This document shows positions 19,218 to 45,078 of a stretch of DNA of 45,078 bases, in pieces. The notes below the pieces were generated by a model that saw only the letters and a program-made list of their open reading frames with translations, was not told the DNA's origin and made no database searches. Source of the DNA: an uncultured Bacilli bacterium (GTDB lineage Bacteria; Bacillota_I; Bacilli_A; RF39; UBA660); NCBI GenBank assembly GCA_947628095.1, contig CANQYO010000004.1, positions 1 through 45,078 on the forward strand. Reading direction: 5' to 3'. The translations under genes and the position numbers were made by a program. Each line of letters starts with the position of its first letter. Within the stretch, counting starts at the first letter, position 1.

Positions 19218-21818
19218 TTAACTAGCTAACTTTACTGTATATGGGTCGTCCATTGTGCCATTTCCACCAGCTAATAATACATCTGATTTTAAATTAATGA
19301 CTGCTCGTAAACCTCCAGAATAACCTACCCAATCTCCTTTTACATTACCAGTTGAAGAAAATAACAAATTATTAGCAGTAACACTTCGATTAGTAAAAGT
19401 TGAAGGAGACATTGTCCAATAAGGTTGGTTTGAAATTAAATAAAACTTACTATTATCCAAGCCATATACTGCTCCAGCAAACCATGCTTCATCAAATGTA
19501 ATTAAACCTATTGGTTTTTCTAATTTTTTGTTACCTTTACCACTACTTCCTTTCATGCTAAATAAATCAGCCAAATTTGAACAAACTAAAGTGGCACCTT
19601 TAGATGAAGAAGCTCTATTATAAGGATTATATAACGTGTTAACACCAATAGAATATCCATCTCCTCCTAGTATACTTCTATCATTACAAAAAGTACCTCC
19701 GGTATTTATATACTCACTAGCTGTTCCTCCACCCTCGGTTGTTGTTTCGGCTAACTTAGTTGTATACCAATTTTCAAGAAGAGTTTTAGCATTACTACTT
19801 GCTGTATCTAATCTTGTTCCTTCATACGACTTTGAACTATATGAATAAAAATATGCTTGTATCTCAGTTGCATTAGTAACTGATTTCACTTCTATTAAAT
19901 ATTTACATTCAAAACTTGCAATAATTGCTTTACAAGTATATTTATATCCTTCACTTAATTTATTAGAAGCTTTAAAATCGGCAAAGGAAGCACTATAATC
20001 TGCATTTTTTAATTTAAAAGTTTTGGTATCATCATTGCTTGTATATTCTTTGGCAAAATAATATTTTACACTTCCTGGTATATCTGTATAAGTTGCTTCT
20101 GAACTCTTTATTGGTGTCTCAGAAAAATTTTCGCCATACATATATCCTAAAAATGTTGGGTCATGTGATTGTTTATTATACTCTTCTCCCTTGCCAGTTA
20201 CAGAAGCTTGATTCCAACCATTAGAGTTAACTGTTGGACCATTATAAATAAGTCTTACTGAACCATCTCCATTTACTCTTATGATTTTCCAATAAAAGCC
20301 GGCAAATTTTACATTATTATTTTTAACATCTCCTCGATAAAAGTAGGTATCTCCATCATTATCAGTTGTTTTATATAACCCAACTTCACTTCCTATGGCA
20401 TTGGCTTCTTTAAATGTTCTACTACTTGCTGTTTTAATTGTATTTCCTTCCATACTTGTTATATGATAAACTGTATTACAGCTAAGCGTATTGGCAGACA
20501 CTTCTGCAGCAAATATTGCACCACATGTCCATTTTCCATTCATATCACTTGATAAATTTTGTTTTTCTTTTATGTTACCTTTTATTGTATACTTACCAGT
20601 TATTGTATTAAACGTTACACTATCACCATAATTCCATAAATAACCACTAAGTTGAGGTACTGTTGCTCCTGATGTTTCCTCAGTTGAAGCATAGGTTATT
20701 TCAGGTGCTGTTTTACTTAAAGTTGCATTTCCTTTGGCCTTTATTCCAACTTTAGCTTCTTCTACATTATTACTTAATTGTTCTGAAACTAGTAAACAAT
20801 CTGCAAAATTAGAGAAACCATTATTCTTGCAATAATCTTTACTTCCTTTTATATGCATATATTTTAATATTTCATAATTTTCTGTATCATTTTTACTTAA
20901 TTTTATATTTATATCTGTTTTTAAGTCTATATCATTTTTAGATGTTACATAAACCTGCATTTTTATTTTTTTGTTTTCTTCAAATGTATATGTTTGACTA
21001 ATACTTGATAGATTTTGCCTATCTTCACTTTTATTTCCAGCATCATCTTGATATGTGAAAACTACATCTGAATTACTTGTTGTTATATCAAGCTTCATAG
21101 TATCTGCTGAGGTTAATGCTATTTCTTTTTCACTTGGGTTCAAGTAATTACTTATACTTACCATGAAATAAGTTTTACCATTTTCATAATAAGAATTTTG
21201 ATAATCTACTTCTAAAGGTACATTCATTTCATTTAAGTTTCCATCTACTTTTACTTTGAAACTAGCATAACTATTGTTCCATACATCTTGGATATAATCT
21301 ACATTTTGATTTCCTATAGTTACTCCTTCGTCTATCCACATACGAAGTGAGTAATCTTTGGTATATGAATTAGTTCCTGCATCTATTTTCTCTGCCCATA
21401 TTCTGGTATCATTTAAGGTCTTATATCTATTTGCATTTACTAACACATCTTCTCCACTTGTTAGATATACATCTATATCCTCGTCTTTTAATCTGATTTT
21501 ATTTGCTTGTTCTTCTCCATATACTATACTTATTCCATAGTATATATCTTTCTTACTTTGGTTTTTACCACTTATTGTAAATTTAAAGATATTGTTATTT
21601 AACTTTAATGCGCTTTCTTTATCCATTGGAACTGCATCTGTTAGATTTATTTGGTTAGTTTCAGTATAATTCATATATATGTCTCCTGTTACTAAGACAC
21701 TATTCTCATTACCATTTAAAGTAAAATTTACAAATGCATATGTTACTCCAAATACTGTTAATAACATTACCACTACTGTTACTATTATCCCTATTCTCTT
21801 ATTTTTATTATATTTCAC
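19218..21818 (-). CDS. Large SipW-type secreted surface protein, paralog A
   Basis: SipW-like signal 'KRIGIIVTVVVMLLTVFGVTYAFVNFTLNGNENSVLVTGDIYMNYTETN'; C-terminal module 'YKTTDNDGDTYFYRGDVKNNNVKFAGFYWKIIRVNGDGSVRLIYNG...YWTMSP...GLRAVINLKSDV...GTMDDPYTVKL'. GTG at 21818 preceded by GGAGG is preferred over ATG 21830. Confidence 0.8.
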   Translation of the reverse strand: MKYNKNKRIGIIVTVVVMLLTVFGVTYAFVNFTLNGNENSVLVTGDIYMNYTETNQINLTDAVPMDKESALKLNNNIFKFTISGKNQSKKDIYYGISIVYGEEQANKIRLKDEDIDVYLTSGEDVLVNANRYKTLNDTRIWAEKIDAGTNSYTKDYSLRMWIDEGVTIGNQNVDYIQDVWNNSYASFKVKVDGNLNEMNVPLEVDYQNSYYENGKTYFMVSISNYLNPSEKEIALTSADTMKLDITTSNSDVVFTYQDDAGNKSEDRQNLSSISQTYTFEENKKIKMQVYVTSKNDIDLKTDINIKLSKNDTENYEILKYMHIKGSKDYCKNNGFSNFADCLLVSEQLSNNVEEAKVGIKAKGNATLSKTAPEITYASTEETSGATVPQLSGYLWNYGDSVTFNTITGKYTIKGNIKEKQNLSSDMNGKWTCGAIFAAEVSANTLSCNTVYHITSMEGNTIKTASSRTFKEANAIGSEVGLYKTTDNDGDTYFYRGDVKNNNVKFAGFYWKIIRVNGDGSVRLIYNGPTVNSNGWNQASVTGKGEEYNKQSHDPTFLGYMYGENFSETPIKSSEATYTDIPGSVKYYFAKEYTSNDDTKTFKLKNADYSASFADFKASNKLSEGYKYTCKAIIASFECKYLIEVKSVTNATEIQAYFYSYSSKSYEGTRLDTASSNAKTLLENWYTTKLAETTTEGGGTASEYINTGGTFCNDRSILGGDGYSIGVNTLYNPYNRASSSKGATLVCSNLADLFSMKGSSGKGNKKLEKPIGLITFDEAWFAGAVYGLDNSKFYLISNQPYWTMSPSTFTNRSVTANNLLFSSTGNVKGDWVGYSGGLRAVINLKSDVLLAGGNGTMDDPYTVKLAS

Positions 21819-21852
21819 TTTATCCTCCATATTATATCTTTATTTCAAATTT

Positions 21853-21881
21853 ATGATATCATTTTGATAACATTTTGTCAA
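21853..21881 (-). promoter_or_regulatory. Predicted sigma-A promoter of surface paralog A with embedded operator-like repeat
   Basis: Minus strand TTGACA (21881-21876) - 17 nt - TATCAT (21858-21853). Confidence 0.65.
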
Positions 21882-21911
21882 TATCATTAATTATAATATT
21901 TTGATAACATT
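21861..21911. repeat. Pair of 14-nt perfect direct repeats ATTTTGATAACATT in the divergent promoter region
   Basis: Copies at 21861-21874 and 21898-21911 (37-nt spacing), flanked by ATGATATCAT (21853) and TATGATAT (21911). Confidence 0.85.
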
Positions 21912-21935
21912 ATGATATGAAAGGAATGAGTGTTA

Positions 21936-22109
21936 ATGGATAGTAAAGTCGCTACTTTAATAAGAATTGATGAGCAACTATATGAAGATATAAAATACTT
22001 TGCTGAAAAATATTCAAGAAGTATTAATAAACAAATTGAATTTATTTTAAAAACATATGTTGAAAAAGAATTTTTAAAAGAAGAAAAAGAAAATCAAACT
22101 GAAGACTAA
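21936..22109 (+). CDS. Small ribbon-helix-helix (Arc/CopG-like) DNA-binding protein, 57 aa
   Basis: MDSKVATLIRIDEQLYEDIKYFAEKYSRSINKQIEFILKTYVEKEFLKEEKENQTED*; RBS AAGGA upstream; divergent from paralog A. Below the length cut-off of the supplied ORF track. Confidence 0.8.
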   Translation: MDSKVATLIRIDEQLYEDIKYFAEKYSRSINKQIEFILKTYVEKEFLKEEKENQTED

Positions 22110-22140
22110 AAAAAATTATCCTAAAAATTAAAATAACATT

Positions 22141-22180
22141 ATAAATAGCTCCATTTTAATAATAAAATGGAGCTATTTTA
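22141..22180 (+). terminator. Intrinsic terminator downstream of the RHH gene
   Basis: AAATAGCTCCATTTTA-ATA-ATAAAATGGAGCTATTTTA, ~14-bp stem. Confidence 0.75.
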
Positions 22181-22213
22181 TGTGTCGAATTTAATCGAAT
22201 TTTATTATAGCTA

Positions 22214-22242
22214 TTTACAAATTTATTTTTATTTATTATAAT
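22214..22242 (+). promoter_or_regulatory. Predicted promoter of antisense RNA
   Basis: TTTACA (22214-22219) - 17 nt - TATAAT (22237-22242). Confidence 0.6.
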
Positions 22243-22248
22243 TTAATT

Positions 22249-22330
22249 TGTAGGAAGCAATTTAGTTTTATGCTAAATGCCTACCTTGAATGGTTTGGCA
22301 TTGTTAATCTAATTAACAGTGCCTTTTATT
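22249..22330 (+). ncRNA. Predicted ~80-nt antisense RNA (candidate type I antitoxin)
   Basis: Promoter at correct spacing, 5' hairpin GTAGGAAGCAATTTAGTTTTATGCTAAATGCCTAC, 12-bp terminator hairpin GGCATTGTTAAT-CTA-ATTAACAGTGCC followed by TTTTATTTTT; no ORF; convergent to the small hydrophobic ORF. Confidence 0.6.
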
Positions 22331-22413
22331 TTTACTGCTAAAATCATTATGATAATAACAAGTAATATTATTATGATATTTTGAAAAAAAATCATAAAAT
22401 CTTTTTTCGCCAT
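22309..22413 (-). CDS. 34-aa hydrophobic peptide, candidate type I (Fst/TxpA/holin-like) toxin
   Basis: MAKKDFMIFFQNIIIILLVIIIMILAVKIKGTVN*; RBS ATGGAGG 8 nt before ATG; single TM with charged termini. ORF track lists a longer in-frame ORF (22309-22530) but the RBS supports this start. Confidence 0.65.
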   Translation of the reverse strand: MAKKDFMIFFQNIIIILLVIIIMILAVKIKGTVN

Positions 22414-22544
22414 ACTCTTGACCTCCATTCTATCAACCAAGTTCCCCTGATTAAAATAGAAAAATAGAAGGCAGGCACCTAGCTCTAATTTGCTTCCATA
22501 GACATTAACATAACATACTTTATTTAACAATGCAACACCTTGAC

Positions 22545-22567
22545 ATTTCCTTGAAAATCAAGGAAAT
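22545..22567. repeat. Perfect 10-bp inverted repeat upstream of the toxin promoter
   Basis: ATTTCCTTGA-AAA-TCAAGGAAAT. Confidence 0.8.
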
Positions 22568-22578
22568 CTACAGATTTT

Positions 22579-22657
22579 TTAATAAAATTAACTGAACCTT
22601 TAAAATCGAACTAAAAAAATGTTTCAAATTTAAAAATTCAGTTAATTTTTTTATTAA
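22579..22657. repeat. Long imperfect inverted repeat
   Basis: TTAATAAAATTAACTGAA (22579-22596) versus TTCAGTTAATTTTTTTATTAA (22637-22657). Confidence 0.75.
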
Positions 22658-22717
22658 TTATTAATTTTTAGAAAACTTTTAAGAGAAAAATTTTTTAAAA
22701 AAAAGTTAAAAATAATG

Positions 22718-22757
22718 TAAAAACATAAGTCAAATTTTCTTTAACTTATGTTTTTTT
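22718..22757 (-). terminator. Intrinsic terminator downstream of the adhesin-sortase operon
   Basis: AAAACATAAGT...ACTTATGTTTTTTT. Confidence 0.6.
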
Positions 22758-22781
22758 CATATACCAAGTTTTATATGTTTA

Positions 22782-24065
22782 TTATTTTTTTATTTCAAGT
22801 AAAGAATTAATCAAATAATTATAATCACTTAAAGTTAATTCTTTTTGATTATTCATAATATTATCATATACTTTCTTTACTTGGTCCTCATCATTTTTAT
22901 TATTCTTTAATTCTTCAATATCTAACATAATATTATGTAAATAGTTATTTGAATTATCAAATACTATTCCCATATTTTCATTGATATTTAATTCAACTTC
23001 TTTAGTATTTTCTTTAAATATTGAATCATATGAACTTAATGTTATTGGTTTTTCTTTAACTTCTTTTTTTGCTTCTTCTACTATTTCATTTTTAGCTGGT
23101 TCAACATTTTCATTAATAACTAAAGTATTTTGAAACCCTTTATATCCATTTCTGTTATATGGCATATCATAACTATAAATTTCTTTATTTGGTTCTAATG
23201 TCTTATAATCAGAGAATTCTAAATTACTATACATATTGTCTAATACTTTTGGTTTTTCTATACTTACTTTATTATTATCAGTTGTTTCATTATTTGAAAA
23301 TACTAAATCATCAGTTAATTTTAAAGCGCGTTTTTTAATTGGCACAACTTCAATATAATCATTAAATTTATTTTCTTCTTTAGGTGTTTCATAATCTTTT
23401 TCTTTAACTTCAATTGTATTTAAATGAGCTAATTCTTCTGAATTATTCTTTTCAGTTAAAATTAAATTTTTATTAGTAGCTTTTCTTAATAAGAATTTAC
23501 TTATTAAATCATTTGATAATTTTATAATTACTAATACAAGTGCCCATACTACAAAAAGTTTCATACTAAGTTCAACTAAAACTAGTAAGTTATTATTTGT
23601 ATAAATACTTAATTGCTCATATACATTAACATTATTTTTAATAATATTATCAATTATTAAGTAAAAAATTATATTAAAAGCGACAAAGAAAATAATATTT
23701 AAATTTTTAGTAATTTTACTATCATGCTCAGACAAAGTTGATTTAATTATAATTATATTTATAATAACTAATACTAATATATAAACTGCTAAATTAGGAA
23801 AGAATAGAAACAAGAAAATATTGTTAAATAAATAATCAAATAATTCGAATATTTGAGTGTGGAAAAAATATAATAATGTTCCAAATGTTCCAATATAAAT
23901 AATTGAATATAATATTTTAGTAATTTTCTTATTTTCTGATTTACTTGCTTTCATTAATAAAATGAATAAAATTATAGCAGCTAAAAGTAATATTATTATA
24001 TAAGGATTTGTCGTTAATATTTTAAAGAATATTCCAATTTGCTCTAAAATACTCGCTTGTATCAT
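22782..24065 (-). CDS. Multi-TM membrane protein of unknown function, third gene of the adhesin-sortase operon
   Basis: 427 aa: about five hydrophobic segments then a long Glu/Asn/Lys-rich cytoplasmic tail; 22 nt downstream of the sortase gene. Confidence 0.7.
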   Translation of the reverse strand: MIQASILEQIGIFFKILTTNPYIIILLLAAIILFILLMKASKSENKKITKILYSIIYIGTFGTLLYFFHTQIFELFDYLFNNIFLFLFFPNLAVYILVLVIINIIIIKSTLSEHDSKITKNLNIIFFVAFNIIFYLIIDNIIKNNVNVYEQLSIYTNNNLLVLVELSMKLFVVWALVLVIIKLSNDLISKFLLRKATNKNLILTEKNNSEELAHLNTIEVKEKDYETPKEENKFNDYIEVVPIKKRALKLTDDLVFSNNETTDNNKVSIEKPKVLDNMYSNLEFSDYKTLEPNKEIYSYDMPYNRNGYKGFQNTLVINENVEPAKNEIVEEAKKEVKEKPITLSSYDSIFKENTKEVELNINENMGIVFDNSNNYLHNIMLDIEELKNNKNDEDQVKKVYDNIMNNQKELTLSDYNYLINSLLEIKK

Positions 24066-43350: not shown

Positions 43351-45078
43351 CTAAGCAAGTTTAACAGTATATGGGTCGTCCATTGTTCCTGTACCATTTT
43401 TTACTAATACATCTGATTTTAAATTAATGACTGCACGAAGACCAACGCCAGTGTTAGGAACTCTATTATACCAAAGTGTTCCTTCCGGAATAACGCTTAA
43501 AACAAAGGGAATAGCATTCGTAGCAAAGAAAAATTGTGAAGACATAGTCCAATAATATTGTCCGGTATATAAATAGTATCTTTCATTTTCAGTTTCATAC
43601 AAACCACCAGCTAAGGCTACTTCGTCAGCTGTAATTAAACCTATCGGCTTTTCAAGTTTTTTATTTCCTTTACCTTCACTATCTTTCATGCTAAATAAAT
43701 CATGTTCTACATCCGGACATACAAGGCTAGCTGATTTCTTATTTACATTACGGTCATATGCACCATAATATATAGATGGTGCCAATGAAAAGCCATCTCC
43801 ATTTCCTTCTTGTGGAGATAAGCTTCTATCATTACAGAATGTTCCACCTGCATTTATATACTTATCTGCTGTTTGTCCTAATTCAGTTGCAACTGCTAAT
43901 TTTTCACTATACCAATTTTCAAGAATTGTTTTAGCATTACTACTTGCTGTATTTTCTCTAGTTCCTTCATAACTTGTTGAACCATATGATATATATTTGG
44001 CTCGAATACTTGTTGCACTGTTAAATTTAACTACTTCTATTAAAAATTGACATGTTCCATCCGCTGTTGTTGATTTACATGTATATTTGTAATTTTCACT
44101 TAATTTGTTGACTGCATTCCACTCACTAAATGTTCCTAAATAATCAGCTCCGGTTAGTTTAAATGTTTTAGCACTGGCATCTGGTGTATATCCAGTTCCA
44201 AAATAATACTTAGTTCCAGATACTATATCTACATAATTTGTTTCCTTACTTGTAACTGGAGTTGAACTAAAGTTTTCTCCATACATATAACCTACATAGG
44301 CAGGATTAGCTATCCTTGTATTATAAGGTTCTCCTTGTCCTGTTACACTTGATGCTTCCATTCCGGTTGCATTGGCATGGTTTCCATTATAGATTAATCT
44401 TATTGAACCATCTCCATTTATTCTTACTATCTTCCAATAGAAACCTGCAAACTTAACATTGTTGTTTTTAACATCTCCTCTATAAAAGTATGTATCTCCA
44501 TCATTGTCTACTGTCTTATACATTCCATTCTCATTGGCTTGTTCACTTGTTTGACTTAAGGTTACTTCTCCTTTAGCTTTAATTGCTTCTTTTGCTTCAT
44601 TTACATTACTTGCATTCATTTGTTCTGTTATCAATAAACAATCTGATAAATTATTATATCCTTTTTTGATACATGTGCTTGTTATCTCGTCTATATGTAT
44701 TTTCTTTAACATCTCAAATGTTTCAGTATCATTTTTTGTTAGTTTTATATTTATATCTGTATCTATTTTAGAATATGAATTACTTGTTGGAAATACTTTT
44801 ATATTTATTACTTTATTTTCATTGAAACTATATGTTAAATCTAAACTTTTTTTCTTTTCACTTGAAGAACCTTCTTCACTATCAGAATATGTAAACATTA
44901 AATCATTATTATTTGATGTTATTTGTAATTTCATTGTATCTAAACTTGCTAAACTTAACCCTGCTTCATGTGGGTTCAAGTAATTGCTAATACTTACAAG
45001 TATATATTCTTCTCCATGTTCATAATATGTATCTTTATTATCAACTGATAATGGTATATTCATTTCGTTTAAATTACC
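43351..45078 (-). CDS. Large secreted surface protein, paralog B (5' end beyond window)
   Basis: Open to window edge (GNLNEMNIPLSVDNKDTYYEHGEEYILVSISNYLNPHEAG...), colinear with paralog A; ends GLRAVINLKSDVLVKNGTGTMDDPYTVKLA*. Confidence 0.85.
   Translation of the reverse strand, partial: GNLNEMNIPLSVDNKDTYYEHGEEYILVSISNYLNPHEAGLSLASLDTMKLQITSNNNDLMFTYSDSEEGSSSEKKKSLDLTYSFNENKVINIKVFPTSNSYSKIDTDINIKLTKNDTETFEMLKKIHIDEITSTCIKKGYNNLSDCLLITEQMNASNVNEAKEAIKAKGEVTLSQTSEQANENGMYKTVDNDGDTYFYRGDVKNNNVKFAGFYWKIVRINGDGSIRLIYNGNHANATGMEASSVTGQGEPYNTRIANPAYVGYMYGENFSSTPVTSKETNYVDIVSGTKYYFGTGYTPDASAKTFKLTGADYLGTFSEWNAVNKLSENYKYTCKSTTADGTCQFLIEVVKFNSATSIRAKYISYGSTSYEGTRENTASSNAKTILENWYSEKLAVATELGQTADKYINAGGTFCNDRSLSPQEGNGDGFSLAPSIYYGAYDRNVNKKSASLVCPDVEHDLFSMKDSEGKGNKKLEKPIGLITADEVALAGGLYETENERYYLYTGQYYWTMSSQFFFATNAIPFVLSVIPEGTLWYNRVPNTGVGLRAVINLKSDVLVKNGTGTMDDPYTVKLA

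Follow-up and report, generated by a model that had tools for sequence, protein, structure and literature searches.

Retroelements are well known to hypermutate surface proteins, but how a cell picks which of many variant copies to display is less well understood. The stretch of DNA analysed here (the window; 45,078 nucleotides, contig C4 of G000, the AT-rich draft genome, 1.23 Mb in size, of a small gut-type bacterium) raises this question, with a gene for a small ribbon-helix-helix (RHH) protein divergent from a member of a hypervariable surface-protein family. Judging from sequence, we propose with a probability of about 0.6 that the RHH protein represses the surface gene next to it as a private, autoregulated repressor, and that the pair is one unit of a family-wide design for independent control. 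A layout with one regulator per copy would answer, in a testable way, how the cell makes its choice; it would also be a natural source of small repressors whose operators are mutually exclusive.

The RHH gene and the shared control region

A sequence-only reading of this locus had described an RHH protein of 57 aa divergent from a 2.6-kb surface gene, with a near-consensus promoter on the minus strand and two perfect copies of a 14-mer in the gap. All of these features were recovered at the positions in Table 1. The RHH reading frame can start at an ATG (21939; 57 aa) or a GTG (21930; 59 aa). Its product matches the Pfam family ParD_like (PF11903) over residues 7–35, with 30 bits against a curated cut-off of 23 (E = 5e-7), and Arc-like repressor families in PHROGs (E = 3e-6); the Pfam Arc profile (PF03869) scores under its cut-off (12.3 bits versus 20.4, E = 0.16). 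A sequence search of solved structures gave no match and we found no plasmid relatives; distant matches are located in phages. A single-sequence AlphaFold model is one long helix, all-helical and not RHH (pTM 0.41), although a monomer modelled without an alignment is unreliable for a beta-alpha-alpha dimer fold. A second RHH-like gene in the same genome (C27, 37%) was rejected, its neighbours not being of the surface family.

Table 1. Positions of features in the window
Feature	Position	Strand	Remarks
Divergent control region common to both genes	21831..21938	.	gap about 105-108 bp
Surface-gene promoter, TTGACA-17-TATCAT	21853..21881	-	-35 at 21876-21881, -10 at 21853-21858; 11/12 consensus match
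Candidate RHH-gene promoter, ATAACA-19-TATAAT, weak	21867..21897	+	consensus match only, long spacing
14-mer ATTTTGATAACATT, first copy	21861..21874	+	exact match
14-mer ATTTTGATAACATT, second copy	21898..21911	+	exact match
Site S, TGATATCATTTTGATA, candidate operator	21854..21869	+	overlies -10 and spacer of surface promoter
Site R, TGATAACATTATGATA, candidate operator	21902..21917	+	RHH side, beside RHH start; kept in G003 as TGATATCATTATGATA
RHH protein, 57 aa, proposed private repressor	21939..22109	+	profile matches and orthologues
Exported/surface protein, 870 aa, N-terminal membrane segment	19218..21830	-	has about 20 paralogues in all, itself included, dispersed
Hypervariable stretch, residues about 811-840 of the 870-aa protein	19311..19400	-	retroelement-type variable region

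We detected no cognate toxin ORF adjoining the RHH gene, whose neighbours are the surface gene and non-coding DNA or a short hydrophobic ORF. The latter (22309–22413, minus strand; MAKKDFMIFFQNIIIILLVIIIMILAVKIKGTVN; no Pfam match) faces a repeated promoter-like element, TTTACAAATTTAT...TATAATTT.ATTTGTAGG, located at 22214–22254 (plus strand), which directly follows the RHH gene in G000 and also in its sister genome G003. The element has 10 copies in G000 and 9 in G003, often near contig ends, and none in four other species tested. Together, the ORF and the element resemble a type I toxin/antisense-RNA layout.

An exact repeat of at least 14 bp in a 105-bp gap has a P of about 0.001 (5,000 dinucleotide shuffles). 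A search for further copies of the 14-mer, which the sequence-only reading had suggested, yielded just one in the 1.23-Mb genome (C3:39225); it lies within a parA-like coding sequence, and we rejected it as a regulatory site, attributing it to chance. The gap also contains six TGATA cores (P = 0.004, shuffles), at 21854, 21865, 21902 and 21913 on the plus strand and at 21857 and 21882 on the minus strand. The four plus-strand cores form two pairs, 11 bp apart within each pair, so that the gap has exactly two instances of TGATA-N6-TGATA, sites S and R (P = 0.0003, shuffles). Across the whole window we observed three instances against 0.38 expected, the third being within a long open frame. The closest sequence form, TGATANNATTNTGATA, has one further match each in G000 and G003, both within open reading frames. 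Candidate sites are thus present on both sides of the control region, S at the surface promoter and R at the RHH side. One copy of the 14-mer overlaps S in its second half and the other overlaps R in its first half, so the identity of the two copies is in part a chance matter of register. The likelier operator unit, as read from these letters, is the pair of TGATA cores 11 bp apart rather than the less informative 14-mer; in relatives the 14-mer itself is not conserved, and it is the 11-bp-spaced pair that is retained. Rfam gave no match over gathering score for 21800–22800.

We infer binding and repression along the following lines. RHH dimers would recognize paired TGATA half-sites with a spacing of 11 bp, one helical turn. 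Dimers on site S would cover the surface promoter at its −10 element and spacer and so block RNA polymerase; dimers on site R, which suggests autoregulation, would cover the region around the start of the RHH gene itself. The candidate RHH promoter and the surface promoter are back to back on about 50 bp in all, and polymerase at one may also exclude polymerase from the other. Negative autoregulation alone does not give rise to a bistable switch.

The RHH gene in other genomes

RHH orthologues are rare among 293 genomes of the family. In the sister genome (or species) G003 the protein is identical and the surface gene is absent beside it, the neighbour being a SPOR/radC/mreC/mreD group (gene names read from translations). 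The homologous block starts at window position 21897, such that the RHH gene and site R are inside it and site S is outside, and TGATA-N6-TGATA occurs there once (shuffle P = 0.0013). We considered deletion between the repeats as the origin of this layout and dropped it, since the alignment is a conserved block from 21897 with unrelated sequence beyond. An identical protein without the surface gene indicates that the RHH protein has, or is kept for, another role, and the presence of only its own-side site R indicates that pairing with the surface gene is not obligatory.

These observations bear on a different explanation, in which the RHH protein is an orphan autoregulator of antitoxin type or phage origin that controls only itself, with adjacency to the surface gene incidental and site S a by-product. 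The arrangement in G003 speaks for this explanation, as do the best Pfam match to an antitoxin family and the distant matches in phages; so does the DNA identity of the RHH gene between G000 and G003, 97.7% versus about 86% for ordinary flanks, which suggests movement between genomes. Nevertheless, we consider it unlikely: there is no toxin gene beside the RHH gene, site S is on a near-consensus promoter of the surface gene, a divergent regulator recurs in most readable paralogues (see below), and the best orthologue outside the genus has a similar layout. This protein, from G128 (another genus), is 60% identical and is encoded divergently from a membrane-anchored exported protein at a distance of 102 bp, with a promoter TTTACA-17-TATCAT. 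TGATA-N6-TGATA occurs once in that gap, on the exported-protein side (shuffle P = 0.004). A more distant RHH gene in G314 is divergent from a gene for a 379-aa exported protein with a similar N-terminus, and the RHH genes of G095 and G171 have a divergent neighbour that is either small or incomplete. The same word was found in 0 of 14 other regulator/surface gaps.

A dispersed surface family and its proposed local regulators

The 870-aa surface protein has no match in Pfam or NCBIfam. G000 encodes more than 10 full-length relatives at 62–74% identity, dispersed around the genome, and 21 matches when shorter or cut-off ones are included; these counts are lower bounds, as contigs of draft assemblies often end inside the repeated surface genes. 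Relatives occur across the genus. A second family member, with its own variable stretch, lies at 43351–45078 of the window (minus strand), where the contig end cuts it. Among paralogues, entropy at the hypervariable stretch is 2.19 bits, compared to 0.13–1.11 elsewhere. When a model of the surface protein was compared by Foldseek, the matches listed were all beta-sandwiches of low TM score (adhesin, RbmA, glycosidase Ig-like domains), with no C-type lectin among them.

Reverse transcriptases are present in each of G000, G003 and G002. That of G000, on contig C57, matches RVT_1 (E = 1e-18) and has the motif IGNMTSQ (IGxxxSQ type); its Avd-like partner matches bAvd at E = 1.7e-7, below the cut-off for that family. 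Directly upstream of these genes is a 146-aa ORF (L193:530-970, plus strand) with a match to MutS domain I (E = 4e-7). In G002, the surface gene and the reverse transcriptase flank, in this order, the template repeat and two small genes, of which one is Avd-like. Variable and template repeats of G002 differ at template adenines for 15/15 and 18/19 mismatches in two copies; a third, more diverged copy is mixed (17/36). These adenine-specific differences indicate that the family is a set of retroelement targets. We found no template repeat in contig C57 of G000, and elsewhere in that genome only variable template-like cassettes; the window copy, which differs from template-like sequences at non-adenine positions too, may be an older copy.

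The cassettes (ATGTCGCCT...GGCGTGCGC) are numerous and dispersed and do not appear to be coding; their flanks are shared, they vary at adenine positions, and some are near XRE regulator genes. They were located in G000 (L210, L212, L214, L216, L222, L224, L226, L228, L230, L232, L234) and G003 (L209, L211, L213, L215, L217, L219, L221, L223, L225, L227, L237), and may represent retro-copies, additional templates or silent donors.

A divergent XRE or RHH regulator is found in 8 of the 12 G000 paralogues with a readable 5′ flank: the RHH protein at C4, and HTH_3-type proteins at C2, C44, C3, C47, C74, C45 and C19. Three others have a terminator leader (C28, C26 and C70, with the poly-G run itself read in C26), and one has neither. 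Two further pairs, C38 and C42, which we found via their regulators, lie outside this unbiased count. The regulators of surface paralogues are 57–80 aa in length, without a sensor domain. All 15 regulator/surface gaps from G000 and G003 are 105–143 bp long, and 13 contain a promoter with a 17-bp spacer and a 9–12/12 consensus match, with dyads or repeats on it. Dyads are positioned in the spacer or at the −35 element and again about 41–50 bp downstream of the start of the −35, and they are retained between orthologous gaps. In the regulator pair C2/C56 we saw no clear dyads and no consensus promoter; repeat enrichment (shuffles) was significant for most gaps, the exceptions being C2/C56, C44 and C42/C84. 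Proteins of this size leave no room for a sensor domain, and the promoters are near-consensus; both points favour repression set by the level of the regulator.

For each gap we built an operator model by eye from the sites in it, and each model matched its own gap and the orthologous gap but no other. Given how the models were obtained, the self-match is trivial, and the informative results are the orthologue matches and the absence of cross-matches. Within one clade of regulators, the operator position is kept and the operator sequence has changed. The earlier proposal of a dedicated local switch for the surface protein is strengthened by these comparisons: many paralogues have another small divergent regulator and a locus-specific candidate operator on the same kind of promoter, and the G128 pair again has TGATA-N6-TGATA. 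It is qualified by G003, where the RHH gene stands without a surface gene.

Many surface-family genes across the genus have runs of 8–11 G about 60–200 bp ahead of them, in short leader ORFs where these are readable (L056 and L061 in G003; L047 in G000; L064-L067, L070, L072, L075, L078, L083, L094, L095, L097 and L099 in other species). At L056 and L061, gain or loss of a single G would place the stop codon of the leader at the base of a long terminator hairpin. In G003, the XRE regulators at C13 and C21 (L148, L150) either adjoin a leader of the poly-G type where a contig ends or stand alone, as the RHH gene does in G003, and their G000 orthologues, C47 and C44, are each beside a surface gene; C24 of G003 (L146) also adjoins a poly-G-type leader.

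Dispersed paralogues, Cro/CI-like regulators and unshared operators speak for another explanation, in which regulator and surface gene travel as a mobile cassette, the regulator acting like a phage immunity repressor that silences its own cassette and discriminates against others, with no switching benefit to the cell. The module is absent from the equivalent site in G003, where yqeY is followed by rpsU, and some regulators are orphaned in that genome. However, we saw no integrase or transposase beside the module in the window, and strong conservation of the surface protein around one hypervariable stretch argues for use at the cell surface; we regard the cassette explanation as improbable. 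It is very doubtful that the regulator is an activator, even though RHH proteins such as AmrZ act as both repressor and activator (PMC3325190), because the near-consensus promoters with an optimal 17-bp spacer need no activator and the proposed site overlaps the −10 and spacer.

Under private repression, each paralogue would be run by a regulator of its own, acting at an operator that other loci do not share, or else by a poly-G leader, and we infer independent or stochastic switching on and off. The leaders suggest that both arrangements may have a common purpose, independent on/off control of each member. More tentatively, at a little under even odds, we suggest that about 20 retroelement-diversified surface receptors mostly have their own non-cross-reacting switch, which would be a private divergent repressor in some cases, its private operator lying within the promoter spacer, and an attenuator of the poly-G leader type in others. 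If so, receptors could be displayed singly or in changing combinations, and regulators of the same clade would be a natural set of orthogonal repressors. The RHH case indicates that the fold of the regulator can be swapped with the layout unchanged. We found no divergent private regulator for each retroelement target in the open-licence literature.

Comparison with known systems

Arc of phage P22, CopG and omega are small RHH repressors. Like them, the RHH protein of the window is very small and without a sensor domain, and has candidate half-sites about one helical turn apart and a candidate site inside the promoter to be blocked. It differs in falling below the Pfam Arc cut-off, in its chromosomal surface-gene target and in its direct TGATA half-sites, and binding here is predicted. 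Immunity regions of lambda type have small divergent HTH regulators (Cro/CI), with several dyads over back-to-back promoters and a specificity of their own in each case. The small divergent regulators described here share these features, but a single genome has many units of this kind, and all of them adjoin members of the same surface-protein family.

The diversity-generating retroelement of Treponema denticola has two to seven dispersed targets (PMC4891356). The system here likewise combines one reverse transcriptase and an Avd-like protein with a template repeat and with surface-type proteins that carry adenine-specific variable repeats at their C-terminus; in contrast, it has about 20 targets, with separate local control proposed for most of the readable ones. 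In the Streptococcus gallolyticus pil1 locus, the length of a repeat within a leader ORF changes, and with it whether the ribosome gets as far as a terminator (PMC3894217). The poly-G leaders of other family members, such as L056 and L061, resemble this phase-variable attenuator, with homopolymeric G in place of the GCAGA repeats of pil1, whereas the switch proposed for the surface gene of the window is a protein.
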